NCBI RefSeq assembly: GCF_025464955.1 | Contig: NZ_JAODNM010000131.1 | Location: 1-64,000 of the forward strand | Length of the DNA stretch: 64,000 nt | Source: Amycolatopsis sp. | GTDB lineage: Bacteria > Actinomycetota > Actinomycetes > Mycobacteriales > Pseudonocardiaceae | Direction: 5' to 3' | In this document: positions 15,472 through 30,794 of the stretch, in pieces | How positions within the stretch are numbered: position 1 is the stretch's first letter | Layout: each line of letters starts with the position of its first letter | Made by a program: the position numbers and the translations under genes | The notes under the pieces: model-generated | Database searches by the model: none | What the model was told of the DNA's origin: nothing | The model's input: the letters and a program-made list of their open reading frames with translations, nothing else

Positions 15472-18082
15472 ACGGGCGCAGCACAGGAGCGGCGGCGAGT
15501 CCGCTCGGGTCGAGCCCGTCGGCTTGGTGCCGGGTCCCGGCGTAGTAGCGGTTCGCCGCGGTGGAGGCGACGTGGAGTGTGAGTTCGTTGCGCCCCTTGA
15601 CCAGCACGTCGTCGAGGAGACAACGATAGGGCCCCCAGCCGAGCCGGGCGACGGATTCGCCGTTGAGGTCGATCTCGACGCTGCCGTGCACAGCGGGGAG
15701 TACCAGTTCCCAGCGTGTCCAGGCGAGCTGCTCGTCGGTCACGTCGAACGACACGCGGTACTCACCGACGCCGGAGTACCGCGGCAGCCCTTGCTGTTCC
15801 CAGCCGCGGTCCACGGCGATCGGCCGCGGGTCGCCGTCGGCGGTCAAGGTCCAGCCGGTCCGCAGCGAGACCGTCGCCGGAACGACGGACGGCCCGTCGC
15901 CCAACTGGAAACAAGCCAGTTCGCCGGGGCCCAGTGACAACTCGTATTCGCCGTCCAGTTCGATGACGTCGTCGACGAGGCCCGATTCGGGACGCCAGCG
16001 GGTAAGGCTGCCCGGAAGCGAACTCGGGCTCAGCGTGACGCGCGCAGGCTGGTCAGCGTCGTTGAAAACGGCCAGCCGCCACCCGTCGCCGTCGCGCCCG
16101 CGACGCGACCACACGGACGGTTCCGCTCGCACCGACACGTGGCCGGACAACGCACCACCGAGCACAGCGTCAAGAGCGTCGGCGTCGTCAACAGCCACCG
16201 GGACGCCATCCCAGTGCGACGCCAGCAGCGGCCGGATCCGTTCGACGAGTGCCGGGTCCTCCCCCGCCGCTTGGGTGGCACCGGGCAGCCGGCCCGACGC
16301 GACGACGACTCCTCCCCCGGCGACGAACGAACGCAGCGCGGCGACCGTGTCCTCGTCGGCGATGACCGACACCCCGGGAAGCACCAGCACGCGGTACTGT
16401 CCGTCGAGCTGCCCGGCGCGCAGATCGCGTTCGTCGACCAGGTGGTAGTCGTATCCGGTGCGAGCAAGGTGTTCGGCCCAGAACGCGACGTGTGCGCCGT
16501 AGCCGTCGGAGGGTCCGCCCGCCCAGTTGGTCCGCAGCGGATAGAGGACAGCGACCTCGGACAAGGGATCCGCCGCGTCGAGGAATTCGGACAGCCTGCC
16601 GGATTCCTCGGCGAACGCGCGGTGGTGGCCGAACCACGGCTCGAAGTTGACGCCGGGGGCGAAGTCGAACCGCGGGTTGGTGAACAGTTCGTCGCGGTCG
16701 TCACCGTCGGTGAGCCAGAACGCGTGCATCAAGAGCTGACGCGCGCCGAGCAGGTGGTGCCGGACAGTCTGCGCGCGCAGTTCGGAAAGGGTCAGCTCCC
16801 ACCGCCCTGCGGCGAAATGCGAGCCGGTGACCGTACGTGCGAAGTACTGCTCGACCAAGCATCCGCTGCGCCCGTTCGACCGCGCCACCGAATCGCCGAA
16901 CTTGGCACCGATCTGTGGATGGGCGTTGCGCGCGTCGACCGCGGTGAGGTCGCGCCACCGGTCGAGCCCGAAGTAGTCGGTGCCGAAGTTGGTGCGCGGG
17001 TCCTCGGTGATGATCGTGCTCGCCGGGTCCCACGAGGACACGTATCCGAGCACCTCGTGGCCTGACAGCGCCACGGAATGTTCACCACACCAGCGCGACA
17101 ACGGCTGAAAGAACGCGTCGATGCCCGTGGACGAGTAGCGCTCGAAGAACGCGCATCGCCATGCGGGCGTCATCGGCCCGACGTCGGTCACCAGCGCCAG
17201 CAGCTCGCGCCGGTCGGCGGGAACGATTCCGGGCGCGAACATGAGCGACGAGCCCACGTGCCCGGTGTGTTCGCGCCACCGGAAGAAGCAGCCGTGCGGC
17301 TGGTCGAAGAACATGTACTGGACCGTGGTGCCGAAGTGCTCCCCGAACGCGTCGGCGTAGGGCTGGTAGCCGACTTCGAGGAACCGTTCCGCCGCTTCCG
17401 GCAGCAGGTAGTTGATCATCCGGCTCGACGCGCAGCGCGCGGCCACGAACACCGTCACGGCGTCCAGACCGCTGGGCAGGACGTCACGAGGTACGCGGAC
17501 CGTGCAGCCGCCGTCGCCCGACGTGACGAGCTCCGCGGCCGCGGTGACGTCCACAATGGACTTGGCGCTGCCGATGCCGCCGGCCGGATGGGCCAGTGCC
17601 GCGACGACCAGCCAATCCGCCCAGCGCACCTTCCCGTCCTCGAACACCCACGCCATCCCGGGATCGAGCAGGTACTCGACGTCGGTGGGCCGGATGTCGC
17701 CGACCACGCACTCGACGTCGTCACCCGAGCCCTGCGACGTCGACTGCGCTGCCGACCAGAAGAGATGTGACTCCCTCAGTTCGTCGCGGCCGGCGACGGT
17801 ACGGCCGCCCGCGTGCCCGGACAGCCAGTTGTACTCGTCGTAGACGCCCATCATCAGCCCGCGGGCGGCGGCTTCGTCGGCCGCCGCCCGGCAGGCCGCG
17901 AGGTACTCCTCGCCGAGGTACTCGTCGAGCGGGAAAGACAACCGCGCCTGGATCTGGAACGACCGGAACCCGGCGCCGGCCAGCTGGTCGAGCTGGGTAC
18001 TAATCTCTTCGGCGGTCGGAATGCGGTGCCAGAACCAGTACGTGGCAGGCGCGTGCCAGACGTCCGGGCGTTCGAAGCTCAC
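15434..18082 (-). CDS. Large glycoside hydrolase (GH106-like, with C-terminal jelly-roll)
   Basis: This 882-residue protein begins with a barrel-type catalytic region: YWFWHRIPTAEEISTQLDQL, then AGFRSFQIQARL and GVYDEYNW. A class I GATase-like Rossmann region (about 560-610, YRVLVLPGVSVIADEDTVAA, then GGGVVVASG) and a GH2-type sugar-binding jelly-roll (about 770-860) follow. This order is that of GH106 alpha-L-rhamnosidase-like enzymes; the sugar specificity cannot be read. No signal peptide is evident, so it is probably cytosolic. Its ATG overlaps the stop of the NCS1 permease, making it the last gene of the nicX operon. That context is odd and suggests a glycosylated substrate taken up by the permease (inference). 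Confidence 0.75.
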   Translation of the reverse strand: MSFERPDVWHAPATYWFWHRIPTAEEISTQLDQLAGAGFRSFQIQARLSFPLDEYLGEEYLAACRAAADEAAARGLMMGVYDEYNWLSGHAGGRTVAGRDELRESHLFWSAAQSTSQGSGDDVECVVGDIRPTDVEYLLDPGMAWVFEDGKVRWADWLVVAALAHPAGGIGSAKSIVDVTAAAELVTSGDGGCTVRVPRDVLPSGLDAVTVFVAARCASSRMINYLLPEAAERFLEVGYQPYADAFGEHFGTTVQYMFFDQPHGCFFRWREHTGHVGSSLMFAPGIVPADRRELLALVTDVGPMTPAWRCAFFERYSSTGIDAFFQPLSRWCGEHSVALSGHEVLGYVSSWDPASTIITEDPRTNFGTDYFGLDRWRDLTAVDARNAHPQIGAKFGDSVARSNGRSGCLVEQYFARTVTGSHFAAGRWELTLSELRAQTVRHHLLGARQLLMHAFWLTDGDDRDELFTNPRFDFAPGVNFEPWFGHHRAFAEESGRLSEFLDAADPLSEVAVLYPLRTNWAGGPSDGYGAHVAFWAEHLARTGYDYHLVDERDLRAGQLDGQYRVLVLPGVSVIADEDTVAALRSFVAGGGVVVASGRLPGATQAAGEDPALVERIRPLLASHWDGVPVAVDDADALDAVLGGALSGHVSVRAEPSVWSRRGRDGDGWRLAVFNDADQPARVTLSPSSLPGSLTRWRPESGLVDDVIELDGEYELSLGPGELACFQLGDGPSVVPATVSLRTGWTLTADGDPRPIAVDRGWEQQGLPRYSGVGEYRVSFDVTDEQLAWTRWELVLPAVHGSVEIDLNGESVARLGWGPYRCLLDDVLVKGRNELTLHVASTAANRYYAGTRHQADGLDPSGLAAAPVLRPFTRSRRAYRESR

Positions 18083-19584
18083 GACGCGACCTTCTCCGTC
18101 ACTCGCGGCGGTGCGGACGCGTACTGGCCGGGCAGGGTGATTTTCAGCGCGAACGTCAGGAACGCGTAGAGCGCCGCCCCGATCACCATCGCGATGACGA
18201 CACCGATGTTGGTGCTGCCGATGACACCCTTCTTCGCGCTGTCGGACAGGAAGAACCCGACGACCTTCGCGATGTTCGGGTCCGACGAGGTGACCAGCCC
18301 GAGCCCGATGACCGACGCGACGCCGAGCGACACCAGTGCCGTCCAGCGGCCGCTCCGGCCGCCTTCACCCTCGCGTTTGGCCAGGTCGACGTTCCAGTCG
18401 AGCCGGCGCTGCCGGATGAAGTCGAGCAGCACGATGCCGCCCATCGTGCCCATCACGACCGAGATCAGCGCGAGGAACGCCTGGAAGGTGGCCAGGAAAG
18501 AGTCCGAGATGAAGAGCAGGTAGAACGCGCCGAGCGAGATGACGACCATGTTGATCGCGGTCGTCCCGGCGCGGGACAGCGGGACGCCCAGCGCCAGCAG
18601 TGCCAGCCCGGACGAGTAGAGGCCGGTGATCGCGGCGGCGATCAGCGAGATCACGATGACGATGGTGAACGGGATGAAGAACCACAGCGGCAGCAGGTTG
18701 GTCAGCGCGCCGATGGGGTCCGACGCGGTCTGCGCGCCCAGTGCGGGATCGCTCGCGACGAGCAGCACACCGAGGACGAGCAGGACGACGACCGGAAGCG
18801 AGATCCCGCCGGCTGTCCAGCTGATGACCCCGCGGGCGCCGGTCTTGCGCGGCAGATAACGCGCGAAGTCGCCGCCGTAGTTGAGGAAACCGAGCCCGAC
18901 GATCGTCATCGCGAGCACGACCCCGCCGATGAACGTCACGAACGAGCCGTTGGGAGCGGAGCCGAGCTTGCTCCAGTGGATGTGCGGCAGGATCAGGCCG
19001 ATGAACACCAGCGTCATCACCGCGGTGAGCCAGGCGATCCAGTTCTCCACCTTGAGGATCAGCTGGTGACCGAACACCGCGACGGTCATCGTCGTCGCGA
19101 GGACGACGACGTACCAGAGCACGATCGCGAGGACGTTGCCCTCGCCCTTCCCGTCGGCGAAGGCCGACGGCCAGAGCCGGGCGAACAGCTTCGCCCCTGA
19201 CGTCGACGCCAGCGTGATGATGGTGATCTTCCAGCCCAGGTTGGACAGGTAGGCGAAGAACGTCGGGAACTTGTTGCCGTGGAAGCCGAACGCGATCCGG
19301 GTCTGGGTCAGCGTCGGCAGTCCCGTCCGTGGGCCGCCGACGGCGATGATGCCCACGAGCGCCGACGACACGAGGTAGCCCAACACGCCGGCGAGGATCG
19401 CCTGCCAGGCACTCAGTCCCAGGCCGAAAACGAAGATCCCGTAGCTGATGCCCAGGATGGATACGTTCCAGGAGAACCAGATGGCGAAGAGCCCGCGTGG
19501 GGTACCCCGCCGTTCTTCGTCGGGCACCGGGTTGACGCCGTTGCGCTCGACCGTTGGTCCGGTGGTGGTCGGTGCTTCGCTCAC
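18079..19584 (-). CDS. NCS1-family nucleobase/heterocycle:cation symporter
   Basis: This 501-residue membrane protein with about 12 hydrophobic segments has the NCS1 hallmarks FAIWFSWNVSILGISYG near residue 35 and TRIAFGFHGNKFPTFFAYLS near 95-115. NCS1 carriers import cytosine, purines, hydantoins, thiamine and related heterocycles with Na+ or H+. I chose GTG at 19584 (VSEAPTTTG), which follows AGAAGGAG and overlaps the TAG of the maleate isomerase gene by one base. Lying between nicE and the glycoside hydrolase, it probably imports nicotinate, a hydroxynicotinate or a nicotinate conjugate. That substrate is inferred from context. Confidence 0.88.
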   Translation of the reverse strand: MSEAPTTTGPTVERNGVNPVPDEERRGTPRGLFAIWFSWNVSILGISYGIFVFGLGLSAWQAILAGVLGYLVSSALVGIIAVGGPRTGLPTLTQTRIAFGFHGNKFPTFFAYLSNLGWKITIITLASTSGAKLFARLWPSAFADGKGEGNVLAIVLWYVVVLATTMTVAVFGHQLILKVENWIAWLTAVMTLVFIGLILPHIHWSKLGSAPNGSFVTFIGGVVLAMTIVGLGFLNYGGDFARYLPRKTGARGVISWTAGGISLPVVVLLVLGVLLVASDPALGAQTASDPIGALTNLLPLWFFIPFTIVIVISLIAAAITGLYSSGLALLALGVPLSRAGTTAINMVVISLGAFYLLFISDSFLATFQAFLALISVVMGTMGGIVLLDFIRQRRLDWNVDLAKREGEGGRSGRWTALVSLGVASVIGLGLVTSSDPNIAKVVGFFLSDSAKKGVIGSTNIGVVIAMVIGAALYAFLTFALKITLPGQYASAPPRVTEKVAS

Positions 19585-20363
19585 TATTTCGCTCCTTCTG
19601 GGCGTACAGCCATGATGTCGCCGTGAAGCAGCCGACCCGCGCCCGGCACACGGGGCCGCAGCCCGAGTGCGTCGAGCAGCGCGAAAGTCGTCGCCGTGGC
19701 GGCGGTGAGCACCGGCAAGCCGGCTTCGTCCTCGACAGCCTGCACCACCGGGAAGGAGGGCATCTGCACACACGCCGAGAGCACGATCGCGTCGGCGTTC
19801 GAAACATCCAGCCTGCGCCAGTGGCGACGCAGGTCCTGCGGGTCCAGCCGGGCGACCGCCAGGTTGTCCGGCACTTCGAGGCTCAGCGCGTCGACCACTT
19901 CGACTCCACTGTCCTCGATGTACTCGGCGACCAGTTTGGTCAGCGGCTTCAGGTACGGGGTGATGATCGCGACGCGGCGCGCCCCGAGCGCGGCGATGCC
20001 GGTCAGCAGCGCACCCGCGCTCGACAGGACCGGCGCGTCGGATCCGTTCTCGCGCAGCGCGGCGGTGATCTCCGCTTCGGCCGTGCAGTGGTAGCCCGGT
20101 CCCTGCGCCATGATCGCGACCAGGCAGGCGGAGGTGACCACGTCGGGACGCGCGTCGGCGAGTTCGGCGGCCGCGCGCGGCGTCTGCGCGTTCATCGCGA
20201 GCAACTGCTCGGGCGTGACGTGCCGCATGCGCATCCGGGCGCTGTGGAAGATGAACCGGTCCTCAGGCCAGACGTCCTCGCGCGCCCGGAACATCCTCGG
20301 CAGCTCGGTCTCCATGGTGAGGTTCGAGCTGGGCACGATCATGCCGATGTGGTAGTCGGTCAT
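19584..20363 (-). CDS. nicE: Maleate cis-trans isomerase
   Basis: This 259-residue member of the Asp/Glu racemase superfamily should convert maleate to fumarate, the last step of the nicotinate pathway, with no cofactor. It has the substrate-binding PSSNLTMETELP (residues 11-22) and the two catalytic cysteines Cys80 (TSACLVAIM) and Cys198 (LSACVQMPS). Their 118-residue spacing equals that of the characterised Nocardia enzyme (Cys76/Cys194, from memory). The start at 20363 overlaps the nicX stop by ATGA, and the end overlaps the NCS1 start by one base, so it is the second gene of a tight operon. Confidence 0.9.
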   Translation of the reverse strand: MTDYHIGMIVPSSNLTMETELPRMFRAREDVWPEDRFIFHSARMRMRHVTPEQLLAMNAQTPRAAAELADARPDVVTSACLVAIMAQGPGYHCTAEAEITAALRENGSDAPVLSSAGALLTGIAALGARRVAIITPYLKPLTKLVAEYIEDSGVEVVDALSLEVPDNLAVARLDPQDLRRHWRRLDVSNADAIVLSACVQMPSFPVVQAVEDEAGLPVLTAATATTFALLDALGLRPRVPGAGRLLHGDIMAVRPEGAK

Positions 20364-21391
20364 CGACGGCCGGCCGGGCGCATCTCCGGGACGACCAGCT
20401 CGCCGCCGGCCACGATCGGCTCGTCGTCGAGGAACAGGCTGCAGCCGCGCATCGGGATGTCGAAGTGGCACGGAGTGTCGTTCGGGCCGCCCAGCTCGTT
20501 GTTCGGGCCGATGGAGAACATGACGTTGCCGTAGAACGACCGCAGCTCCATGCCCATCCCGCCGGGGAACTGGGTGAGCCCGTGCCAGTGCGCGCGCTCG
20601 TCGAGACCCCAGCCGACGTGCGACATGCCGTAACCGCGCGGGTCGTCGAACGATTTGATGTACGACGAGAGCAGGTCGGCGTCGAGGCCACCGCGGATGT
20701 CGGTGACGAAGCCCTTTTCGATGGTGAGCTTGACCGGGGTCTGCACGTAGGTGTTGAACGGCAGCAGCACGTCACCCGGGGAAAGCACGATCGTCCCGTC
20801 GACGCCGTCGTCGGTGCCGCCGGTGAAGACGAACGCCGCCGGCCAGTGGTCCCAGCGGCCCGGGGTATCGGTGTAGCCGTACTCGCTGAGCGTCGGGTAC
20901 AGACCGAGCTTGTACGTCACGTTGGTGCCCTGCGGGCTGGTGATCCGCATCGACGAGGCCTTCGAAAGCAGCTCGGCACCGATTTCGACGCGCTCGCGGA
21001 GTTCGGGGGTCGGCATCAACCTGGCCAGCAGCGGCGCGGGCTCGACCACGGTCAGGATGCGGGTACCCGCGTCCTGGATGGCGAACTGCTCCTTGCTGAA
21101 CAGCAGGAAGGTCAGGTCGATGAGCATGTCGGTCTGCTTGAGCGCCTCGACGGCAACCGGGTTGGTGCCCAGCCCGGAGTCACCGACGGCCCACGCGCCG
21201 GAACCGCCGCGCGCCGACGGGAGTCGAAGGTGGAACGTGTTCGCACCGAGCTCCTGCGCCGCGAACAGGAACGCATCCGCGTAGTCGGCTCGTTCGTCCC
21301 CACGGGAGAGCACCGAAACGGTCTCGCCCTCGTGTACCCCGCTCAGCGTCAACTGCCGTACGAAGATGTCGTTCAGCTGGTTGTGGTCCAT
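20360..21391 (-). CDS. nicX: 2,5-dihydroxypyridine 5,6-dioxygenase
   Basis: This 343-residue iron(II) extradiol-type dioxygenase of the M29-aminopeptidase-like fold should open 2,5-dihydroxypyridine to N-formylmaleamate. Candidate ligands are His258 (MSHVGWG), His309 and Asp311 (DTPCHFDIPM). These correspond in order and spacing to His265, His318 and Asp320 of Pseudomonas putida NicX as I recall them, and the length matches its 350 residues. I start at ATG 21391 because GAGAGGA lies just upstream, although a GTG six codons earlier is also in frame. It heads the minus-strand operon nicX-nicE-NCS1-glycoside hydrolase, divergent from the MarR gene. Confidence 0.92.
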   Translation of the reverse strand: MDHNQLNDIFVRQLTLSGVHEGETVSVLSRGDERADYADAFLFAAQELGANTFHLRLPSARGGSGAWAVGDSGLGTNPVAVEALKQTDMLIDLTFLLFSKEQFAIQDAGTRILTVVEPAPLLARLMPTPELRERVEIGAELLSKASSMRITSPQGTNVTYKLGLYPTLSEYGYTDTPGRWDHWPAAFVFTGGTDDGVDGTIVLSPGDVLLPFNTYVQTPVKLTIEKGFVTDIRGGLDADLLSSYIKSFDDPRGYGMSHVGWGLDERAHWHGLTQFPGGMGMELRSFYGNVMFSIGPNNELGGPNDTPCHFDIPMRGCSLFLDDEPIVAGGELVVPEMRPAGRR

Positions 21392-21489
21392 CGAGATCCT
21401 CTCGAACACGGAATTAGTCCGGGCACTGACTATCTACTCTCGGACGCGTTCCGGTCAAGAGGGTGAACCGTTCGTGATTAGCTAGACAC
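21392..21489. promoter_or_regulatory. Divergent nic promoter/operator region
   Basis: This 98-base region separates nicX (-) from the marR gene (+). It contains TAGTC (21415-21419) and GACTA (21428-21432) as a 5-bp inverted repeat with 8-base spacer, close to the nicX start, and TTAGCTAG just before the marR ATG. These are the most operator-like and -10-like elements visible. The MarR protein is the expected binder. Confidence 0.5.
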
Positions 21490-21969
21490 ATGGCGGGTAC
21501 AGCTGACGAAACACCACTGACCAAAACGGACGCCCCGGAGACGCCCGAGCGACTGCTGGCCGCGCCCGGATATGTGGCCAGGCGTCTCTACCAGGCTTAT
21601 CTGTCCGCTTGGGTGCGCCGGGTCGACGGAACGCTGACCGGCCCGCAGTTCGCCGTGCTGACCGCCGTCGGCAGCTATCCCGGCGTCGATCAGGGATCTC
21701 TCGCGTCGTCCGTGGCGCTTGACCGCTCGACCATGGCGGACATCGTCCGCCGGCTCGAGGATCGCGACCTCGTCGTCCGCGAAACCGCCGCGAACGACGG
21801 CCGCCGCAAGCTGCTGTACCTGTCCGACCAAGGCGCGGCGAAGCTCGACGAGGTCAACACCCGCGCCCACGAACTCGACGAGCTTCTGCTCGCCGAATAC
21901 TCGCCCAGCCAGCGGAAACGCCTCCTCGACGAGGTCACCGAACTGGCCGAGCTCTGGGAAAGCCTGTAA
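21490..21969 (+). CDS. nicR: MarR-family regulator of the nicotinate genes
   Basis: This 159-residue winged-helix protein has the MarR core LTGPQFAVLTAVGSYPGV, then SLASSVALDRSTMADIVRRL (recognition helix) and the wing DGRRKLLYLSDQG. It lies between the two divergent nic operons, the position of NicR in Pseudomonas. By analogy it should repress both promoters and be released by 6-hydroxynicotinate or a later intermediate. The symbol is given by context and family, not by a specific sequence signature. A hairpin after the gene separates it from nicC. Confidence 0.82.
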   Translation: MAGTADETPLTKTDAPETPERLLAAPGYVARRLYQAYLSAWVRRVDGTLTGPQFAVLTAVGSYPGVDQGSLASSVALDRSTMADIVRRLEDRDLVVRETAANDGRRKLLYLSDQGAAKLDEVNTRAHELDELLLAEYSPSQRKRLLDEVTELAELWESL

Positions 21970-21982
21970 GCGCAGGTCGACA

Positions 21983-22028
21983 CTCGTGAGAGTTCCGGCT
22001 GGTTCTGATCGGCCGGAACACCCACGAG
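21983..22028 (+). terminator. Two-part hairpin after the marR gene
   Basis: CTCGTG/CACGAG (6 bp) and GTTCCGGC/GCCGGAAC (8 bp) stack across a symmetric 3x3 internal loop around a 12-base loop. It lies 13 bases after the marR stop in a 161-base intergenic region. It may terminate or attenuate transcription before nicC. The rest of the region to 22130 presumably holds the nicC promoter. Confidence 0.65.
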
Positions 22029-22130
22029 CTCTGATTGTTTCCGGCGGGTTTCATTCGGCCAAGGGGGTTGCGGTTTGGGATCGTCCGTGTTCGGATTATC
22101 TCCTTCGACCCCCGGCGGAAGTGAGGACCA

Positions 22131-23399
22131 GTGTCTGCGAGTCAGTCGTACAGTGTGGTGGTTGCCGGCGGTGGACTCGGCGGGCTCACGGCGGCGTTGT
22201 CGTTGCGGCACAAGGGTCTTCGAGTCACCGTGCTGGAGCAGGCCCCGCAGCTCGGCGAGGTCGGGGCGGGGATCCAGACCGCGCCGAACGCCAGCCGGAT
22301 CCTGATCGGACTCGGCCTGCGCGCCCAACTGGAAGCCATCCACACCGAGCCACTCGACCAGGTTCGCCGTCGATGGAAGGACGGCAGCGTCATCGCGATG
22401 ACGTCGCTGGGCGACCGCTGCAAGCGCGAGTACAACGCCCCCTACTGGCACTACCACCGCGCTGACCTGCACAAAGTCCTCCTCGACGCCTGCGTCGACC
22501 CCGACGGGCCCGGCCCGGTGGTGCAAATCCGTACCAACAGCCAGGTCGTCGACGTCGACCGCGCCGACCCGGCACGTCCCATCGCTGTCACCTCCGGCGG
22601 CGAGCGCTATCCGGCCGACGTCGTCATCGGCGCGGACGGCATCCGGTCGAGCGTGCGCGACGCGCTCGACCTGCCCGACACGCTGGTGTTCTCCGGCGAA
22701 ATGGCCTATCGGGTGCTGATCCCCGGCGACAAGATCGCGGCCGACCCGGCGACGCGCTGGCTCGTGGACCGTTTCCAGAGCACGATCTGGTACGGCCCGG
22801 ACCGCCACCTCGTGCACTACATGATCCGCGGCGGGCAGTTCCTCAACGTGGTCGCGATCGTGCCGTGCTCCCCGGAGATCGAGCGCAAGTGGTCCGGTCC
22901 GGCGTCCGCCGACGAACTCGTCGACGCCTTTCCCGGCTGGGACGACCGAGTCGCTTCGATGCTCTCGAAGTCCGAAGGCGACGCGACGGTGTGGGCGATG
23001 TTCCACCGACGCCGCGATCCGGTGTGGACGGACGGCCATGTGGTGCTGCTCGGCGACGCCTGCCACGCCATGCTGCCGTACCAGGCCCAGGGTGCGTCTC
23101 AGGCCATGGAGGACGCTGCCGTGCTGGCCGAAGAACTGGGCGCTGTCACCGTTTCCGGCATCGGCGACGCGCTCGCGCGCTACGTGTCGCGCCGGGCGAA
23201 ACACGCCGGCATGGTCCAGGACGCCTCGTGGCAGAACATGTCGTTCTACCACCTTCCGGACGGGCCTGAGCAGCGGGCGCGGGACGCGAAACTGAAGGAC
23301 TTCAATGGCGAGTCCGACGTTTCCTACGACTGGTTGTGGCGCGGAACCCCGTTGCACGACAAGGACCTCGAGGCTTTTTCCTACCAGTTCCGCAAGTAG
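22131..23399 (+). CDS. nicC: 6-hydroxynicotinate 3-monooxygenase-type flavoprotein
   Basis: This 422-residue group A FAD-dependent aromatic hydroxylase has the FAD-binding GGGLGG (residues 13-18), GADG (167-170) and GDACHAMLPYQAQGA (308-322) motifs. Several segments resemble Pseudomonas NicC, for example KREYNAPYWHYHRADLH against its RREYGAAYITIHRGDLH. It should perform decarboxylative hydroxylation of 6-hydroxynicotinate to 2,5-dihydroxypyridine using NADH and O2. Salicylate-hydroxylase-like enzymes share the fold, so the assignment rests partly on the cluster. The GTG start follows a GGAAGTGAGG-like site. Downstream genes follow closely. Confidence 0.88.
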   Translation: MSASQSYSVVVAGGGLGGLTAALSLRHKGLRVTVLEQAPQLGEVGAGIQTAPNASRILIGLGLRAQLEAIHTEPLDQVRRRWKDGSVIAMTSLGDRCKREYNAPYWHYHRADLHKVLLDACVDPDGPGPVVQIRTNSQVVDVDRADPARPIAVTSGGERYPADVVIGADGIRSSVRDALDLPDTLVFSGEMAYRVLIPGDKIAADPATRWLVDRFQSTIWYGPDRHLVHYMIRGGQFLNVVAIVPCSPEIERKWSGPASADELVDAFPGWDDRVASMLSKSEGDATVWAMFHRRRDPVWTDGHVVLLGDACHAMLPYQAQGASQAMEDAAVLAEELGAVTVSGIGDALARYVSRRAKHAGMVQDASWQNMSFYHLPDGPEQRARDAKLKDFNGESDVSYDWLWRGTPLHDKDLEAFSYQFRK

Positions 23400-23419
23400 C
23401 GAACCCCCGGAGGACGGCC

Positions 23420-24856
23420 ATGATCACCGGTGACCGGATCGTGCAGGAGCTGCCCTGGCGGTGGCGAGTCCAAGGACGCATCTTCCTGATCGGAGGACTC
23501 GGCTACCTGTTCGACGCGTGGGACGTCGCGTTGAACGGCTACCTCACGCCGTTACTGGGCACGGAGTTCGGGCTTTCGGCGGGCGGGCGCGGCCTGGTCG
23601 CGAGTGCCAACCTGATCGGGATGGCCGTCGGCGCGGTCGTCTGGGGCACGGTCGCGGACCGGGTGGGCCGGAAGAAGGCCTTCAGCCTCACCCTGCTGAT
23701 CTTCTCGGTGTTCTCCGTCCTCGCCGCCGCCTCGCCGGACTACGAGATCTTCCTGGTACTGCGGTTCGCCGCCGGGTTCGGCCTCGGCGGCTGCATCCCG
23801 GTCGACTACGCGCTGGTCAGCGAGTTCTCGCCGAGACGGCAGCGAGGGAAGATACTGGCGGCGATGGATGTGTGGTGGCCGATCGGCGCGACGTTGTGCG
23901 GAGTGGTGTCCACCGCGCTGGTACCGCTGAGCGGGAACTGGCGGTGGATGCTGCTGGTGATGCTCCTGCCCGCGCTGTTGCTGTTCTGGGTCCGCCGCGG
24001 CATCCCGGAATCACCCCTCTACCTGGTCCGGGTGGGCCGCGAGCGGGAAGCCCGCGAAGTCATCGACAAGCTCGTCGCCGACACCGGCGCTCTGGTGCGC
24101 GAATACGCCGTACCCGAGCCGATCGCCGAGGAGACTCGGGCGCGGGGCGTCCGGGCGGCCGCGCAGCAGCTTCGGCGGGTATGGGCGTTCGATCCGCGCA
24201 TCACCTCGGTCGCGTGGGCCTTGTTCGTCACGATCATGCTGGTCTACTACGCCGCGTTGAGCTGGATGCCGTCGATCCTGAAAGCACAGGGCTACGGCTC
24301 CACGGCGGCGTTCACCGGGACGACGGTGATGAGCGGGCTCGGGATCGTCGGCGTGGTCGTCTCGGCACTGCTGGTCGACGTCGTCGGCCGCAAATGGGTC
24401 ATCGGCGTTTCGGCGCCGGTCGCGTCGGCGGCGCTGGTGGTGTTCGCGATCGTCCTGGGCCTGCACGGACCGACCGTATTCTGGCTGGGGGTGTTCGGGT
24501 TCTTCGTCCAGATCGCGATTCCCGTGCTCTACGCCTATGTTTCCGAGCTCTACCCGACGGACCTGCGGGCGAGCGGGTTCGGCTGGGCGTCGTCGGTCAG
24601 CCGGGTGGTCACCGGGTTCACCCCGGTCATCTTCGGCAGTCTTCTGTGGCCGGTGCTCGGTCTGCCGTGGACGTTCACCCTGATGGGAGTGATCGTGGTC
24701 GCCGCCGTGCTGTGGATGGCGAAAGCCGCGCCCGAGACGAAAAATCGGGAACTGGACGGCGCCGACAGCGCCGGCAGCGCCGCCGCTGACCACAACGCCG
24801 ACAGCGCCTCCAGCGCCATCGCGGCTGCCGAAGACGCCGTGGTGGGAGGCGCATGA
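23420..24856 (+). CDS. nicT: MFS transporter of the nicotinate cluster (aromatic-acid:H+ symporter type)
   Basis: This 478-residue, 12-TM major facilitator protein has the motif WGTVADRVGRKKAF between TM2 and TM3, and ELYPTDLRASGFG in its second half, as in metabolite:H+ symporters of the AAHS and sugar-porter groups. The start at 23420 has CCCGGAGG eight bases upstream; an earlier in-frame codon at 23336 lies inside nicC and is rejected. It probably imports nicotinate or 6-hydroxynicotinate. The C-terminal tail is rich in Ala, Asp and Ser repeats (ADSAGSAAADHNADSASS). It overlaps the next gene by ATGA. Confidence 0.82.
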   Translation: MITGDRIVQELPWRWRVQGRIFLIGGLGYLFDAWDVALNGYLTPLLGTEFGLSAGGRGLVASANLIGMAVGAVVWGTVADRVGRKKAFSLTLLIFSVFSVLAAASPDYEIFLVLRFAAGFGLGGCIPVDYALVSEFSPRRQRGKILAAMDVWWPIGATLCGVVSTALVPLSGNWRWMLLVMLLPALLLFWVRRGIPESPLYLVRVGREREAREVIDKLVADTGALVREYAVPEPIAEETRARGVRAAAQQLRRVWAFDPRITSVAWALFVTIMLVYYAALSWMPSILKAQGYGSTAAFTGTTVMSGLGIVGVVVSALLVDVVGRKWVIGVSAPVASAALVVFAIVLGLHGPTVFWLGVFGFFVQIAIPVLYAYVSELYPTDLRASGFGWASSVSRVVTGFTPVIFGSLLWPVLGLPWTFTLMGVIVVAAVLWMAKAAPETKNRELDGADSAGSAAADHNADSASSAIAAAEDAVVGGA

Positions 24857-25710
24857 AACCCGCGTCGTTCGTGTACCACCGGGCTCACGACGTCGTCGGC
24901 GCCGGTCGGCTGCTCGCGGAACTCGGGGACGAGGCGAAGCTCATCGCCGGCGGGCAAAGCCTGGTGCCGATGATGAACTTCCGGCTCGCCCGGCCGCGGC
25001 ACCTCGTCGACATCGGCGGCCTGCGCGAACTGTCGTATCTGCGGGTGGACGAATCCGGCCTGCACATCGGCGCGCTCACGACGCACCACGAAGTCGAGAC
25101 CGCGGCCGAGACGGCGCCGGGTAGCGGGTTCGAGCTCCTGCGCGCGGCAATGGGCTGGGTCGGGCACCTGCCGATCCGGACGCGCGGCACCGTGGGCGGC
25201 AGCCTGGCGCACGGCGACGCGACCGCCGAATGGTGCCTGCTCGCCGTGGTGCTGGACGCGTACGTCGTCGCGGCGAAGGGCGACGGGACGCGCCGGAAGA
25301 TCGCCGCGCACGAGCTGTTCCTCGGCTTTTTCTCGACGTCGCTCGAACCCGGCGAGCTCATCGTCGAGATCGTCTTCCCCCGCGCGGCTCCCCACGCCGC
25401 GATCGCCGAGTTCGCCCTGCGACGCGGCGACTTCGCCATTGTCGCGGCGCTCGTGACCCTCGAGCTGGACGGCGAGCGGCTGCGCGGCGCCAGGATCGTC
25501 CTCGGTGGCGTGTCCGAAATGCCCCAACGGGTTCCCGCGGCCGAAGCAGTGCTGGTCGGAGAGGTGACGTCCGAGCTTTTCGCCACGTGCGCGGACGCGG
25601 CGGCGTCGGCCATCGACCCACCGAGTGACGCCAACGGCAGCGCGGACTACCGCCGCGAGCTGACCCGGACGCTGGTCGCCCAAGCATGCAAGGAGGCGGC
25701 GTCGCGATGA
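24853..25710 (+). CDS. Molybdenum hydroxylase FAD-binding subunit (CoxM/XdhB-like)
   Basis: This 285-residue medium subunit of a xanthine-dehydrogenase-family enzyme carries FAD through AGGQSLVPMMNFRLA (about residues 36-50) and the RTRGTVGGSLAHGDATAEW segment (about 111-130). It passes electrons from the 2Fe-2S subunit to the external acceptor. It is the first of three structural subunits encoded in the order FAD, Mo, FeS, joined by ATGA overlaps on both sides. In this cluster the complex should hydroxylate nicotinate at C6 (inference from the other pathway genes). Confidence 0.9.
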   Translation: MKPASFVYHRAHDVVGAGRLLAELGDEAKLIAGGQSLVPMMNFRLARPRHLVDIGGLRELSYLRVDESGLHIGALTTHHEVETAAETAPGSGFELLRAAMGWVGHLPIRTRGTVGGSLAHGDATAEWCLLAVVLDAYVVAAKGDGTRRKIAAHELFLGFFSTSLEPGELIVEIVFPRAAPHAAIAEFALRRGDFAIVAALVTLELDGERLRGARIVLGGVSEMPQRVPAAEAVLVGEVTSELFATCADAAASAIDPPSDANGSADYRRELTRTLVAQACKEAASR

Positions 25711-28082
25711 CGGCCACGCACGAACCGCGGTTCGCGGCATCCGGGAAGTGGGTCGGCGCGTCGGTGAAGCGCAAGGAGGACCCGCGCCTGCTCACCGGCC
25801 GCGGACGCTTCGTCGACGACGTCCACCTGCCGCGCATGCTCCACGCGCAGTTCGTGCGCAGCACGGTCGCGTCGGGCACGGTCACGTCGCTCGACCTTTC
25901 CGCGGTCCTCGACGTCCCGGGCGTCGTCGCCGCGTTCAGCGCCGAAGACCTCGATCTCGCCGACATCACCGCCGTGCTCGACCGGCCGGCGTCGGAGTTC
26001 GTGCCCACCGCGATGCCGGTGCTCGCGCGCGACCGGGTGAGGTACGTCGGCGAGCCGCTGGCGATCGTGATCGCCGAAGACCCTTACGCCGTCGAGGACG
26101 GTCTCGAAGCCGCGAAGGTCATGTACGACGCCGACACGCCTGTCGTGTCCGACGAGCAAGCGCTCTCCCCCGGCGCTCCACTCGTCCACGCCGACGCAGC
26201 GGCGAACACGCTGCTCGACGTTTCCATGTTCGCCACCGAGGGCATCGACGACATCTTCGCGACCGCTGCCCACGTCGTGCGGGTGCGAGCCAAGACCGGG
26301 CGGCAGAACGCCCTGCCGCTGGAGACCCGCGGCGCGGTGGTCAACTGGGACGACCGCGACGGCCAACTGATCGTCCAGACCTGCACCCAGGTCCCCCACC
26401 AGGTCAGGACGGTGATGGCGCGGTGTCTCGGCCGCGACGAACGCACCGTGCGGGTGCTTGTCCCCGACATGGGCGGTGGTTTCGGGCAGAAATGCGTCGT
26501 CGGGCGGGAGGAGATCGCCGTCGCGGCGGCGTCGCTGCGCCTGGACCGCCCGGTCAAGTGGATCGAGGACCGCAAGGATGCGCTTGCCGCGTCGTTCCTG
26601 GCGCGCGAGCAACGATACGACGCCCGCGCCGCATTCGACGCCGACGGGAACATCCTCGGCCTCGACGTCGACATCGTCTGCGACATGGGCGCGTACTCCT
26701 GCTACCCGTTCACCGCCGGCATCGAGCCGCTGATGGCCTCTGCCGAGATGCCCAGCGTCTACCGCGTCCCCGCCTACCGGGTCCGGGCACGCGCGATCAC
26801 CACGAACAAGGCGCCGACGGCGCCGTACCGCGGGGTCAGCCGCCCGCAGTACGTCATGGTGATGGAGCGGCTGTTCGAACGCGCCGCCCGCGAACTGCGG
26901 CTGGACGCGGTGGAAGTGCGCCGCCGCAACGTCATCACGCAGTTCCCGTACACGGGCATCAACAACGTCACCTACGATCCCGGTTCCTATCTCGAAGCGC
27001 TGAACCTCTGCGAGCGGATCGTGATCGACGAAGGCTGGTACGAGCGCAAGGCCGCGCTGGCGGCCGATGGGCGGATCCTCGGCATCGGCTATTCGTGCTT
27101 CAGCGAGCGGACCGGCTACGGCTCCGACGCGTTCGCGAAACGCAAGATGACCGTAGTGCCCGGGTACGACATTTCCGAGATCCGGATGGACACCAGCGGG
27201 TCGGTCGTCGTCACGACGGGGACGATGAGCCACGGCCAGAGCCACGAAACGACGATGGCGCAGATCGTGGCCGACGAGCTGGCGCTGGAACTGGACAAGG
27301 TGAAGATCGTCCAGGGCGACACCGACCGCATCACCTACGGCTGGGGCTCGTTCGCCAGCCGGTCGATCACCATCGGCGGCAGCGCGGTCGGGCTCGCCGC
27401 GACGAAGCTGGGCGACAAGCTCATCGCGGTGGCCGCGCACCTGCTGGACACCCGGCCGGACAACCTCGAGCTCGACCGAGGCGGTGTCCGGCAGCTCGAC
27501 GACCACACCCGCCGACTTTCCTATGAGGACATCGCCGACGTCGCTTACCTCAAGGCGCACCTGTTGCCGAAGGACGCGGATCCAGGCCTCGCCGCGACGG
27601 CGTCGTTCGACGTCGCCGGGGACGGCACGTTCTCCAACGCCACGCACGGGGTCGTCGTCGAGCTGCATCCCGGGACCGGTCGGGTCGAGATCCTGCGGTA
27701 CGTGTGCGTCGAGGACTGCGGAGTCGCCATCAATCCACAGATCGTCGAGGGTCAGGCGCGGGGCGGTATCGCACAGGGCATCGCCGGTGCGCTGTTCGAG
27801 GAAGTCACCTACGACGCCCAGGGCGAGCCGTCGTGCGCCAGCTTCATCGACTACAAGATCCCTACCGCGTCGGAGATGCCGGATATTTCCGTCCACCACC
27901 TGGAAACCCCGTGCGCGTTCACTCGCAGCGGCGCGAAGGGCGCCGGTGAAGGCGGCACGATCGGCGCGCCCGCCGCGGTGCTCAACGCCGTCAACGACGG
28001 CCTGCGTGACACCGGCATCGAGCTCGACAACACGCCCATCACCCCGGAAGCCGTGCATCGGGCGTTAAGGAGCCGAGGATGA
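25707..28082 (+). CDS. Molybdenum hydroxylase catalytic subunit, probable nicotinate hydroxylase
   Basis: This 791-residue molybdopterin-binding large subunit of the xanthine dehydrogenase/aldehyde oxidase family has a conserved start (VGASVKRKEDPRLLTGRGRF), MGGGFGQK (Mo-cofactor region), PYRGVSRPQ, GQSHETTMAQI and the catalytic glutamate in KGAGEGGTIG (Glu748). It lacks the AYRCSFR loop of true CO dehydrogenases. Cluster context makes 6-hydroxylation of nicotinate the most likely reaction. Pseudomonas uses a two-gene NicAB enzyme with cytochrome domains, whereas this is the three-subunit FAD form. ATG at 25707 overlaps the preceding stop. Confidence 0.88.
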   Translation: MTATHEPRFAASGKWVGASVKRKEDPRLLTGRGRFVDDVHLPRMLHAQFVRSTVASGTVTSLDLSAVLDVPGVVAAFSAEDLDLADITAVLDRPASEFVPTAMPVLARDRVRYVGEPLAIVIAEDPYAVEDGLEAAKVMYDADTPVVSDEQALSPGAPLVHADAAANTLLDVSMFATEGIDDIFATAAHVVRVRAKTGRQNALPLETRGAVVNWDDRDGQLIVQTCTQVPHQVRTVMARCLGRDERTVRVLVPDMGGGFGQKCVVGREEIAVAAASLRLDRPVKWIEDRKDALAASFLAREQRYDARAAFDADGNILGLDVDIVCDMGAYSCYPFTAGIEPLMASAEMPSVYRVPAYRVRARAITTNKAPTAPYRGVSRPQYVMVMERLFERAARELRLDAVEVRRRNVITQFPYTGINNVTYDPGSYLEALNLCERIVIDEGWYERKAALAADGRILGIGYSCFSERTGYGSDAFAKRKMTVVPGYDISEIRMDTSGSVVVTTGTMSHGQSHETTMAQIVADELALELDKVKIVQGDTDRITYGWGSFASRSITIGGSAVGLAATKLGDKLIAVAAHLLDTRPDNLELDRGGVRQLDDHTRRLSYEDIADVAYLKAHLLPKDADPGLAATASFDVAGDGTFSNATHGVVVELHPGTGRVEILRYVCVEDCGVAINPQIVEGQARGGIAQGIAGALFEEVTYDAQGEPSCASFIDYKIPTASEMPDISVHHLETPCAFTRSGAKGAGEGGTIGAPAAVLNAVNDGLRDTGIELDNTPITPEAVHRALRSRG

Positions 28083-28576
28083 CCGACCGCTACCTCATCA
28101 CCCTGACGGTCAACGACGCCGAACACGAGCTGCTCGTCGAGCCCCGGCGCACCCTCGCCGACGTGCTGCGCCACGACCTCGAACTCACCGGCACCCATGT
28201 CGGCTGCGAACACGGGATCTGCGGCGCGTGCACGGTCCTGCTCGACGACGCCCCCGTCCGCGCGTGCCTGATGTTCGCCGTCCAGCTCGAAGGCCGCGAG
28301 ATCCGGACGGTGGAATCCCTGTCGGAGGACGGGGAGCTCAACGACCTGCAACAGTGCTTCTCCGCCCGTCACGGCCTGCAGTGCGGGTTCTGCACGCCGG
28401 GGTTCCTCATGCTGGCCACCGGTTTCCTCGCCGAGAAACCCCAGGCGGACAAGCAAGAGATCCGCGAGGCGGTGGCGTCGAACCTGTGCCGCTGCACCGG
28501 GTACCAGAACATCGTCGAAGCGATCGACGACTGCGCGACGGCACGCCGCTCGCGCCAAGAAGGGGCAACACGATGA
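28079..28576 (+). CDS. Molybdenum hydroxylase 2Fe-2S subunit
   Basis: This 165-residue iron-sulfur subunit has a plant-type ferredoxin cluster ligated by Cys43, Cys48, Cys51 and Cys63 (CEHGICGAC, then C) and a second cluster ligated by Cys102, Cys105, Cys137 and Cys139 (CGFC, CRC). All eight ligands are present. It carries electrons from the molybdenum centre to the FAD subunit. Start and stop both overlap neighbours by ATGA, so all three subunits are translationally coupled. Confidence 0.94.
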   Translation: MTDRYLITLTVNDAEHELLVEPRRTLADVLRHDLELTGTHVGCEHGICGACTVLLDDAPVRACLMFAVQLEGREIRTVESLSEDGELNDLQQCFSARHGLQCGFCTPGFLMLATGFLAEKPQADKQEIREAVASNLCRCTGYQNIVEAIDDCATARRSRQEGATR

Positions 28577-29253
28577 TCCTGGACAACGCGGTCGCCGTCG
28601 GCGCGGCCCCGGACGCGGTGTTCGCACTGCTCAACGACGTCGAACGCGTGGTGCCATGCCTGCCGGGCGCGTCGATCTCCGGCGGTGACGGCGAGACGTT
28701 CCACGGTGGGGTGAAGGTGAAGGTGGGCCCCATTTCCGCCGCCTACACCGGCACGGTCCGCTTTCTCGAAGTCGACAAGGACAACCGGCGGCTCCGGCTC
28801 GAAGCCAGGGGGTCCGACACGCGCGGAAGCGGCGACGCCGAAGCGCAGGTGGAGCTGACCGTCGAGGAAACGCCCGAAGGCTCGGTTCTGCGGCTGAAGA
28901 CGGACCTGCTCATCCGGGGCAAGATCGCCCAGTTCGGAAAGGGTGCCATCGCCGCGGTGTCGGCGAAGCTCCTGCAGCAGTTCGCGGTCAACCTGGCCGG
29001 GCTGCTGAATGGCGACCAGCCATCAGTTGTGAAGCCCGTTGTGGCACCAGGAGTGGCGGCCGTCGCGGGCAATCCGGCTGTGGCGCAGCAGAAGGCGGAA
29101 GCGGAGCTCGACGGGCTCGCGATGCTGCTCGGGCCGTCGGCGGGCAAGTACCTTCCGATAGCGGCCGCGTTCGCGGTCGGGATCTTCCAGGGCTGGCTGC
29201 TGGGCCGGGTTTCCGCACAGGCCAAGCTCATCAAGGAGCTGCGCCGTGGCTGA
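28573..29253 (+). CDS. CoxG-like SRPBCC protein with C-terminal membrane anchor
   Basis: This 226-residue protein has a START/SRPBCC-fold N-terminal domain of the CoxG type (VFALLNDVERVVPCLPGA, then KVKVGPISAAYTG and GKIAQFGKGAI), a linker rich in Ala, Val and Pro, and one C-terminal hydrophobic segment (about 200-217). CoxG anchors CO dehydrogenase to the membrane in carboxidotrophs. Here it probably ties the nicotinate hydroxylase to the membrane or helps its maturation (inference). It overlaps the FeS subunit by ATGA and the isochorismatase gene by 8 bases. Confidence 0.85.
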   Translation: MILDNAVAVGAAPDAVFALLNDVERVVPCLPGASISGGDGETFHGGVKVKVGPISAAYTGTVRFLEVDKDNRRLRLEARGSDTRGSGDAEAQVELTVEETPEGSVLRLKTDLLIRGKIAQFGKGAIAAVSAKLLQQFAVNLAGLLNGDQPSVVKPVVAPGVAAVAGNPAVAQQKAEAELDGLAMLLGPSAGKYLPIAAAFAVGIFQGWLLGRVSAQAKLIKELRRG

Positions 29254-29932
29254 GCCGGGCAAGTACGGGCAGCGGACCGACGACACCTACCAGCGCGCCG
29301 GATTTGGCGGGCCGGTCCGGCGCGGGGTGCGGCCGGCGATCCTCGTCGTCGATCTGACCAGGGGTTTCACCGAACCCGCGTATCCCTCTGGCGCGGACCT
29401 GTCCGAGGTCGTCGCGGCGACGTCGACGCTGGTCGACGCCGGCCGCGCGGGAAACGTCCCGGTGGTGTTCACGACGATCGCGTACACCCCGGCCGAGGCC
29501 GACGGCGACGGTGTCGTCTGGCTGCAGAAGGCGCCCGGCATGCGCGCATTGCGGGAAGGCAGTGACGCCGTCGACATCGACCCGCGTCTGCCGCGACGCG
29601 AAGACGACCACCTCATCACCAAGAAGGGCGCGTCGGCGTTCTTCGGCACTTCGCTGGCGTCGCTGCTGGCCGGGCTGCACTGCGACACGGTCCTGGTGTG
29701 CGGCGCGACCACCAGCGGCTGTGTGCGGGCCAGCGCCGTCGACGCGGTGCAGACCGGGTTTCCGGTGCTGGTCCCGCGCGAGTGCGTCGGCGACCGCGCT
29801 TCCGGGCCGCACGACGCCAACCTCTTCGACATCCAGGCCAAGTACGGCGACGTCATCGATCTGTCCGACGCACTCGGCTACCTGGCAGGCCTGCAGAAGC
29901 TCGAGAAATCGGAGAAAGCCGTCCATGGCTGA
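29246..29932 (+). CDS. nicF: Maleamate amidohydrolase (isochorismatase/cysteine hydrolase)
   Basis: This 228-residue cysteine hydrolase should release ammonia from maleamate to give maleate. The catalytic triad appears as Asp36 (LVVDLTRGF), Lys126 or Lys127 (LITKKGASAFF) and Cys159 (CGATTSGCVRAS). The N-terminal extension KYGQRTDDTYQRAGFGG is typical of N-carbamoylsarcosine amidase and NicF-like members rather than short nicotinamidases. The start is a GTG inside the end of the coxG-like gene. The gene following it encodes the preceding enzyme of the pathway, the deformylase. Confidence 0.9.
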   Translation: MAEPGKYGQRTDDTYQRAGFGGPVRRGVRPAILVVDLTRGFTEPAYPSGADLSEVVAATSTLVDAGRAGNVPVVFTTIAYTPAEADGDGVVWLQKAPGMRALREGSDAVDIDPRLPRREDDHLITKKGASAFFGTSLASLLAGLHCDTVLVCGATTSGCVRASAVDAVQTGFPVLVPRECVGDRASGPHDANLFDIQAKYGDVIDLSDALGYLAGLQKLEKSEKAVHG

Positions 29933-30794
29933 ACGCCTGCTCACCCAATCTGCTCTCGCCGACCTCGCCGACATCCCGGCGCAGAGCCGATGGGTCCACT
30001 CCGGACCAGTCCGGCTGCACGTCCTCGACTACGGCGACGGCACAGCCGACGGAGCCAACAGCGCTGGCAGGGTGCCGCTGGTGGTCCTGCCTGGGATCAC
30101 CAGCCCGGCGATCACCATGGACTTCGTCGCGCGGGAGCTGACCGACCTCGTGCGCCCCGTGGTCGTCGATGTGCGGGGACGCGGCCTGTCCGACACCGGC
30201 CACGGCCATTTCTTGCCGGATTTCGCCGCGGACACCGAGGCCGTCTGCCGCGGGCTGGCGTTGGACCGGCCGTTGGTGCTCGGTCATTCGATGGGCGCAC
30301 GGATCGCGGCCGTGGTGGCGGCGCGCGAGCGAATCCCGCTGCGCGGAACGATCCTGGTCGATCCCCCGATGAGCGGTCCGGACCGGGGCCCGTACCCGAC
30401 GACGCTTGCCACGTTCGCCGATCAGCTCGACCAAGCCCGGCGCGGAACGGACGCCGACGAAGTCGCGCTGTCCTGGCCGCGCTGGCCGCGGCGCGAACAG
30501 GAACTGCGCGCCCGCTGGCTCGCCAGCTGCGATCCTGACGCCATCACCGCCGCCCACCACGGCTTCGAGCACGAGGACTTCTTCGACACGTGGCCGGTCG
30601 TTCCCGCGCCGACTGTGCTCATCCACGGGGCCGACAGTCCGGTCGTCACGGCGGCGGGCGCCGCTGAGGCGGCCACCACCAACACCTCGGCCCGGCTCCG
30701 GAAGATCCCGGACGCCGGGCACATGGTGTTCTGGGACAACCCCGCTGTCGCGCTCGCGACGTTGCGAGAGGTCCTGGGCGAGTTGCTCGGCTGA
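29925..30794 (+). CDS. nicD: N-formylmaleamate deformylase (alpha/beta hydrolase)
   Basis: This 289-residue alpha/beta hydrolase should cleave N-formylmaleamate to maleamate and formate. The triad is Ser122 (GHSMGA), Asp146 (ILVDPPMS) and His266 (DAGHMVFW). Its intervals (24 and 144 residues from the serine) equal those recalled for P. putida NicD (Ser101, Asp125, His245), and the VDPPMSGPDRGPYP segment is characteristic. The ATG at 29925 overlaps the nicF stop by 8 bases. The gene ends the plus-strand operon and is followed by a strong hairpin. Confidence 0.92.
   Translation: MAERLLTQSALADLADIPAQSRWVHSGPVRLHVLDYGDGTADGANSAGRVPLVVLPGITSPAITMDFVARELTDLVRPVVVDVRGRGLSDTGHGHFLPDFAADTEAVCRGLALDRPLVLGHSMGARIAAVVAARERIPLRGTILVDPPMSGPDRGPYPTTLATFADQLDQARRGTDADEVALSWPRWPRREQELRARWLASCDPDAITAAHHGFEHEDFFDTWPVVPAPTVLIHGADSPVVTAAGAAEAATTNTSARLRKIPDAGHMVFWDNPAVALATLREVLGELLG

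Follow-up and report, generated by a model that had tools for sequence, protein, structure and literature searches.

A nicotinate catabolic locus of Amycolatopsis with a predicted MarR operator and a candidate front end for glycosylated nicotinate

Gene content and predicted pathway

The 64,000-nucleotide (nt) stretch of Amycolatopsis sp. analysed here (contig NZ_JAODNM010000131.1, hereafter the window) belongs to contig 40 of a genome of 182 contigs and 9.2 Mb in total. The assignment to Amycolatopsis is backed by five loci of its genus mates, each 100% identical across some 4 kb to a locus of a named Amycolatopsis. It carries two divergent operons of predicted nicotinate degradation (nic) genes that flank a marR gene, one of which ends in a glycosidase-like gene. 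The genes and predicted operator sites are listed below, with the functions suggested by homology.

15434..18082, minus strand: GH106-like glycosidase of 882 amino acids; GTG start, 4-nt overlap with the stop of the NCS1 gene, no hydrophobic N-terminal stretch
18079..19584, minus strand: NCS1-family permease (PF02133, 109 bits against a cut-off of 23.5); GTG start, 1-nt overlap with the nicE stop
19584..20363, minus strand: nicE, maleate cis-trans isomerase (PDB sequence matches; Cys80/Cys198)
20360..21391, minus strand: nicX, 2,5-dihydroxypyridine 5,6-dioxygenase; ATG start preferred, in-frame GTG upstream at 21409
21414..21433, no strand: predicted MarR operator in the nicX-marR interval, before nicX (23.6 bits, window left out of training)
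21490..21969, plus strand: MarR-family regulator (family search; closest solved relative PcaV)
22080..22099, no strand: predicted MarR operator before nicC (30.7 bits, window left out of training)
22131..23399, plus strand: nicC-like decarboxylating flavin adenine dinucleotide (FAD) monooxygenase (PDB sequence matches, residue alignment)
23420..24856, plus strand: major facilitator superfamily (MFS) transporter; the best family match is aromatic acid:H+ symport, whose cut-off it does not reach
24853..25710, plus strand: coxM, FAD subunit of a molybdenum (Mo) hydroxylase, 30.1 kDa (from sequence)
25707..28082, plus strand: coxL, molybdopterin subunit of the Mo hydroxylase, 85.1 kDa (quinoline 2-oxidoreductase match)
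28079..28576, plus strand: coxS, 2Fe-2S subunit of the Mo hydroxylase, 18.2 kDa (from sequence)
28573..29253, plus strand: CoxG-family accessory protein (PF06240)
29246..29932, plus strand: nicF, maleamate amidohydrolase of isochorismatase fold (PDB sequence match)
29925..30794, plus strand: nicD, N-formylmaleamate deformylase (PDB sequence match)

The minus-strand operon reads nicX-nicE-NCS1-glycosidase, with overlaps of 4, 1 and 4 nt in order from nicX, and the plus-strand operon reads nicC-MFS-coxM-coxL-coxS-coxG-nicF-nicD, with six of its seven gene junctions overlapping. The initial annotation had placed two divergent operons around marR, and the genes that it named, including two transporters and the regulator, were all found where it had put them; its minus-strand operon stopped short of the fourth overlapping gene, which extends the operon to 15434, and its otherwise sound inventory did not mention the CoxG gene (28573-29253).

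Each step between nicotinate and fumarate is covered by a homologue (Mo hydroxylase, NicC, NicX, NicD, NicF and NicE), as had been proposed. The Mo hydroxylase would convert nicotinate to 6-hydroxynicotinate and NicC would turn the latter into 2,5-dihydroxypyridine and CO2; NicX would then open the ring, and NicD, NicF and NicE would yield formate, ammonia and fumarate. NicX has its best PDB match in the 2,5-dihydroxypyridine 5,6-dioxygenase 7cn3 (E 4e-92), NicE matches the maleate isomerases 4fq7 (3.8e-76) and 2xec (2.8e-66), NicF matches 4l07 (8.8e-66) and NicD the deformylase 4l0c (3.3e-41). The catalytic residues put forward earlier were recovered: in the alignment, the NicX ligands His258, His309 and Asp311 are conserved (numbered from the ATG at 21391, and equal to His264, His315 and Asp317 from the upstream GTG), and NicD Ser122/Asp146/His266 and NicE Cys80/Cys198 are present, the NicD intervals having been compared with the Pseudomonas enzyme only via 4l0c, in whose aligned sequence Ala takes the place of the Ser. 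The ATG is the more likely nicX start, since GAGAGG stands upstream of it and the predicted operator ends before it.

The correspondence to characterised Nic enzymes, clear for these four proteins, is looser for NicC, which scores 260 and 252 bits against the decarboxylative FAD hydroxylases 8gsm and 8x38 (4-hydroxybenzoate and vanillate hydroxylases) and, behind them, 178 and 176 bits against the 6-hydroxynicotinate 3-monooxygenases 8uiq and 5eow. Its His226 and Tyr230 align with two 6-hydroxynicotinate-binding residues of the monooxygenase (named in the part of PMC9304392 available to us), and the other aligned decarboxylative hydroxylases carry both too. As NicC is nearer to these than to Pseudomonas NicC, its predicted substrate rests on operon context and the nicotinate call on the whole operon.

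The hydroxylase is encoded by three genes, coxM, coxL and coxS; the Pseudomonas-type two-component NicA/long NicB was not matched in the window, and CoxL aligns with rhizobial NicB at 32% identity across 138 residues only. CoxL matches the large subunit of quinoline 2-oxidoreductase (1t3q, E 1.4e-158), an enzyme that hydroxylates the ring position adjoining the ring nitrogen. At 373 it has PYRGVSR, against YRCSFR in carbon monoxide dehydrogenase 1ffu, whose Cys we take to be the active-site one; with this Cys motif absent and the quinoline enzyme the closer match, a carbon monoxide dehydrogenase was ruled out.

Compared with the nic cluster of P. putida KT2440 (as described in the accessible part of PMC10269826), the window shares the predicted intermediates, the NicX, NicD, NicF and NicE homologues, a NicC-type FAD monooxygenase and MarR control. 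It differs by a three-subunit FAD/Mo/2Fe-2S hydroxylase with CoxG in place of NicAB, by its gene order (both differences had been recognised in the initial annotation), by a NicC nearer to fungal-type decarboxylative hydroxylases and by the added glycosidase and NCS1 genes. In subunit sizes (18.2, 30.1 and 85.1 kDa) the hydroxylase can be likened to the three-subunit nicotinate dehydrogenase of Bacillus sp. DSM2923 (20, 34 and 85 kDa, according to an extract of PMC10331938); in aerobic Bacillus, ring opening occurs at trihydroxypyridine, unlike the route proposed here (PMC9304392, same part). By homology, the predicted pathway is solidly placed with the known maleamate route from nicotinate to fumarate, of which it is a variant.

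Cluster types and their distribution

A NicX scan of named genomes gave 80 loci, read with flanks of at most 10 kb so that missing genes may lie outside: 49 are of the nicC type, 15 of a second type (type II), one (L046) has another gene order and a 36% identical nicC, and 15 are untyped. The nicC of the 49 loci is 70-82% identical to that of the window, with a coxL of 71-82% alongside in 48 of them, and the genera concerned are Amycolatopsis, Saccharopolyspora, Pseudonocardia, Actinomycetospora, Prauserella, Nocardiopsis, Nonomuraea and others. The locus had been presented as an actinomycete version of the pathway; it does appear to be a nicotinate cluster, one of many rather than a singular one, and its operator and glycosidase had been missed. 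Type II loci carry nicF, coxM, nicD, nicX, coxS, coxL and nicE in a slightly variable order; their NicX is 77-83% and their CoxL 35-38% identical to those of the window, and the stretch contains no nicC (gene content read in three). Two further genes past nicF, for PEP-utilisers and PPDK_N proteins, were found in L018 and L053, and L022 looks alike by eye. This pair is reminiscent of a multi-component enzyme, the 3-hydroxypyridine dehydrogenase of Ensifer, on which we found nothing in the open-licence PMC literature.

These loci bear on the possibility that the window cluster serves another starting pyridine, such as 3-hydroxypyridine or a breakdown product of nicotine or picolinate, with nicC acting on a related acid. 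Indeed, NicX, NicD, NicF and NicE would fit any route via 2,5-dihydroxypyridine, NicX and NicE alone do not separate pathways (15 of the 80 loci are of the other cluster type in spite of their similar NicX), and NicC is closer to 4-hydroxybenzoate/vanillate 1-hydroxylases, which share its His/Tyr pair, than to Pseudomonas NicC. However, the nicC-less type has a different CoxL together with PPDK_N and PEP-utilisers genes that are absent from the window, Pseudonocardia kunmingensis carries both types (L053, L071), and nicC and the 71-82% identical coxL are kept together in 48 of the 80 loci. We consider another starting pyridine very improbable, and a type II pathway was ruled out for the window by its gene content. 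Nicotinate, which the initial annotation had thought vulnerable to NicX and NicE homologues belonging to a different pathway, survives this comparison and is the best substrate call, because the operon is of the nicC type with a heterocycle-type CoxL, unlike the nicC-less loci. Since clusters with a similar NicX occur both with nicC and without it, the pathway should not be assigned from NicX alone.

A NicX match was obtained in 17 of 35 other genomes of the genus (one a fragment), and a NicC tblastn search of 395 other genomes of the phylum, with few candidates scored per genome, gave 44% identity at best, its lower family-level hits being uninformative on function. Judged from these searches, window-like NicC is unevenly spread over the phylum. 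In a midpoint-rooted NicX+NicC+CoxL tree of 36 loci and the window, the latter groups with Nonomuraea (0.63), next with Saccharothrix and Prauserella (0.84), then with three Nocardiopsis-type loci (1.0). Because it does not group with the other Amycolatopsis clusters, the window nic cluster (20360-30794) was probably gained separately from them. In the Pseudonocardia locus L040, coxL, coxM and marR appear in several tblastn pieces, suggesting frameshifts or assembly errors.

Predicted operator and regulator

A palindromic motif search in 155 regions upstream of nicX, nicC and marR (related and in part duplicate sequences) gave de novo the motif ATAATCCGnGCnCGGATTAT, which reaches at least 15 bits in 117 of the 155 regions, also used for training, against 1 of 3,100 shuffled regions. 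A leave-out model, trained on 126 regions with the window and the genus mates outside the named set excluded, scores the sites before nicC and nicX at 30.7 and 23.6 bits; the third-best site in the window has 7.7 bits, so that only two stand out, and 40 shuffled 64-kb windows peak at 18.4 bits. In the whole genome, the place before nicC is the sole mismatch-free one for the IUPAC pattern. A wide regulon was rejected (with at most two mismatches the pattern occurs at 124 places and the reversed control at 20, too many for further members to be named), and a 12.2-bit site near an NCS1 gene on contig 97 was dropped as within chance. None of the 15 nicC-less loci reaches 15 bits (best 11.5), and a 25-kb Embleya plasmid stretch outside the training set has a site of 33.6 bits. 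Of 11 genus loci scored with the model, five are identical to training loci, so the separate cases are the other six and the Embleya stretch.

From the position of the sites, we infer that the palindrome is bound by MarR, whose closest solved relative is PcaV (78 bits); HosA and BpsR/NicR are further known regulators comparable to it. Bound before nicX and nicC, MarR would repress both operons, and a pathway acid, for example 6-hydroxynicotinate, would release it. The operator offers a handle for finding the nic regulon in other actinomycetes.

Glycosidase, permease and the proposed front end

Relatives of the glycosidase were found in 58 plasmid records, mostly of Rhizobium, with at least 80% coverage and 38-43% identity. 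Linkage was counted in 31 plasmid records, namely 19 of the 58, Pleomorphomonas (79% covered) and at least 11 further of the 58; the other 28 of the 58 and three partial matches (Paenibacillus, R. lusitanum, Phyllobacterium) stand outside this count, and the stretch read around the distant Paenibacillus match (24% identity, 40% covered) has no nic genes. All 20 stretches read (the 19 and Pleomorphomonas) hold nic genes near the glycosidase, 18 with nicX-F-E-D-C and nicAB and two (L161, L176) with nicAB only. In the at least 11 further records, the nicC start lies within 7.2 kb of the glycosidase (listings compared), which gives nic genes nearby in 31 of 31 records.

The 18 islands have the order nicX-nicF-nicE-nicD-nicC facing nicA-nicB-glycosidase-second glycosidase-ATP-binding cassette (ABC) importer-amidase-MarR-GH3, with an XdhC gene between nicB and the glycosidase in L179. 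Mesorhizobium AR07 and Pleomorphomonas show other arrangements with nicAB, the AR07 nicC being about 16 kb from the glycosidase. The Rhizobium, Shinella and Pararhizobium islands share with the window the glycosidase family beside a full nic set; they differ by proteobacterial-type NicAB and NicC, and by a PotD-like ABC importer, a GH3, an MGH1/trehalase-type glycosidase and an isochorismatase-type amidase (families from L178), without an NCS1 permease. The Shinella importer resembles the polyamine-binding PotD (142 bits, below cut-off) and, as a lead, such an importer would suit a cationic pyridinium; for the island GH3, the best-scoring model is that of an arabinopyranosidase (610 bits, below cut-off). 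These islands of about 20 kb (L162, L163, L165-L175, L178-L182) occur in the tumour isolates R. tumorigenes and R. rhododendri and in nodule isolates.

With a probability of roughly 0.55, we propose that the locus is an Amycolatopsis nicotinate catabolic regulon extended by a front end that handles glycosylated nicotinate. This proposal starts from gene content, gene overlaps, Nic catalytic residues, the conserved operator and the recurrent glycosidase-nic linkage, all read from sequence. Enzyme activities, operator-binding protein, repressor ligand, glycoside substrate and sugar identity are the conjectural side of the model. In this model, the NCS1 permease would take up a small nicotinate glycoside, which the cytoplasmic GH106-like enzyme would cleave, so that nicotinate would enter the Nic pathway and the sugar would be used elsewhere. 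Permease and glycosidase would form a transport-and-cleavage module, joined in the window to nicX-nicE under the nic operator; in favour of such a module, the two genes overlap in A. taiwanensis too, with an RbsD/FucU-family gene behind them. NCS1 members carry nucleobases and, in yeast, nicotinamide riboside.

A plant nicotinate glycoside is the inferred substrate of the pair, because the glycosidase family meets nic genes of different type in two phyla. Arabidopsis roots contain nicotinate N-glucoside, with an N-pentoside and an N-rhamnoside tentatively identified, and plants glycosylate nicotinate for detoxification (both from the accessible portion of PMC6776627); in tobacco, nicotinic acid N-glucoside is used en route to nicotine (PMC13184244, in extract). 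In the open-licence PMC literature we found no account of soil bacteria consuming nicotinate glycosides, and no paper that describes this actinomycete cluster or any nic cluster containing a glycosidase, which is no proof of absence. At somewhat less than even odds, we suggest that two phyla eat nicotinate glycosides by a dedicated route, in which the nic-coupled glycosidase family would free nicotinate within the cell from imported N-glycosides (N-glucoside, N-rhamnoside, N-pentosides) and the three rhizobial glycosidase types would match the three kinds of N-sugar in roots. If true, an activity would be assigned to a family whose glycosidase nature has so far gone unrecognised, and the tie to nicotinate breakdown in rhizobia and Amycolatopsis makes glycoside feeding directly testable. 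Beyond the known pathway, the interest of the locus lies in the linkage to a glycosidase and in an operator that can be defined.

The glycosidase might instead act on a plant glycoside unrelated to nicotinate, its linkage to nic genes reflecting rhizosphere traits co-selected on plasmids. The GH3 and trehalase-type glycosidases that adjoin it in the islands would fit such a role, as would a gene near that of Mesorhizobium AR07 annotated as a rhamnose ABC substrate-binding protein. However, six annotated islands have the glycosidase start 10-13 nt past nicB, which looks like one transcript, and in the window this gene closes a run starting at nicX and a predicted operator; we judge an unrelated substrate to be quite unlikely.

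Another view is that of a plain nicotinate cluster, in which free nicotinate or 6-hydroxynicotinate would be the cargo of the NCS1 permease, and the glycosidase, a passenger acquired together with the permease, would play no part in the pathway. In A. taiwanensis, a 49% identical glycosidase overlaps by 4 nt the gene of a 69% identical NCS1 permease, followed by a RbsD/FucU-family gene, and this pair lies away from nic genes, near PucR-type regulators and a LacI-like gene (by eye). A weak NCS1 hit (32-34%) follows nicE, without a glycosidase, in three nic loci of Pseudonocardia, and a genus mate (L151) has a 33% NCS1 gene beyond marR. However, in a second phylum the glycosidase stands beside nic genes in at least three arrangements (the Rhizobium-type island, Mesorhizobium and Pleomorphomonas), the nic genes there represent another type (with NicC at 32% identity), and in the window the glycosidase gene overlaps that of the permease and matches the surrounding genes in base composition. 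We regard a passenger as somewhat unlikely.

Several results weigh against the glycoside front end. The 31 rhizobial-type records are closely related and stand for far fewer independent events. Among actinomycetes, the glycosidase occurs in none of the 80 named NicX loci, nor in the remaining nic clusters seen, and a search covering 37 nic-bearing named genomes (39 locus handles, one genome absent and two handles in one genome) found it in A. taiwanensis alone; there, no nic genes lie within the 40 kb read around the pair (the nic cluster, L031, is elsewhere in the genome) and no operator of the window type was found (best 5.8 bits). No full-length glycosidase, only partial matches, was found outside its own genome in 394 class genomes and 80 genus genomes, and the best match among the 394 passes PF17132 itself. 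A close nicC occurs in 154 plasmid records; of the genera concerned, Pseudosulfitobacter (39 records), Pantoea (9), Roseomonas (9) and Paraburkholderia (7) are absent from the glycosidase records, and so, in the organism tally, are Agrobacterium (NZ_CP039890) and Pararhizobium A13 (NZ_CP149511). Because these close-nicC groups lack it, the glycosidase is an accessory of nic clusters, some of which do without it. The protein itself matches no Pfam family, falling below the gathering score of GH106 (PF17132) and below NCBIfam cut-offs, has a conserved Gln at the Glu of the NDEP motif of L138, and gave a poor single-sequence AlphaFold model (mean predicted local distance difference test score 39.3, predicted template modelling score 0.27). 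As for the repressor ligand, one of the four residues by which BpsR binds 6-hydroxynicotinate (Tyr15, His23, Arg26 and His32) is kept in the window MarR, Arg26 as Arg31, while Tyr15, His23 and His32 are replaced by Glu20, Tyr28 and Tyr37; nor are these contacts retained in P. putida NicR (both statements on BpsR from the available part of PMC6837509).

To GH106 alpha-L-rhamnosidases the window glycosidase has only remote likeness: it shows a weak C-terminal rhamnosidase jelly-roll match and is 25% identical over about 870 residues to L138, a GH106 relative that passes PF17132. Of three homologues scanned with PF17132, L161 just passes (30.3 against 29), L176 fails with 12.1 and L178 has no match. 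The family has its own conserved GHE motif (Glu343), which together with the Gln for the NDEP Glu would mark a separate subfamily. Because of the failed Pfam threshold and this Gln, hydrolase activity of the GH106-like protein is unproven.

Some NCS1 match is present in 76 of 80 genus genomes, hits of 40-42% among them, and a genus-wide role of this permease as nicotinate carrier found no support; at E 1e-100 or better, the window permease is matched in three of 388 class genomes, its own included. A 68% identical paralogue in the same genome (contig 97, L150, 9808-12812) overlaps the start of a kynureninase-like open reading frame, and amidase-, VOC- and amidohydrolase-like reading frames surround it (all by eye).

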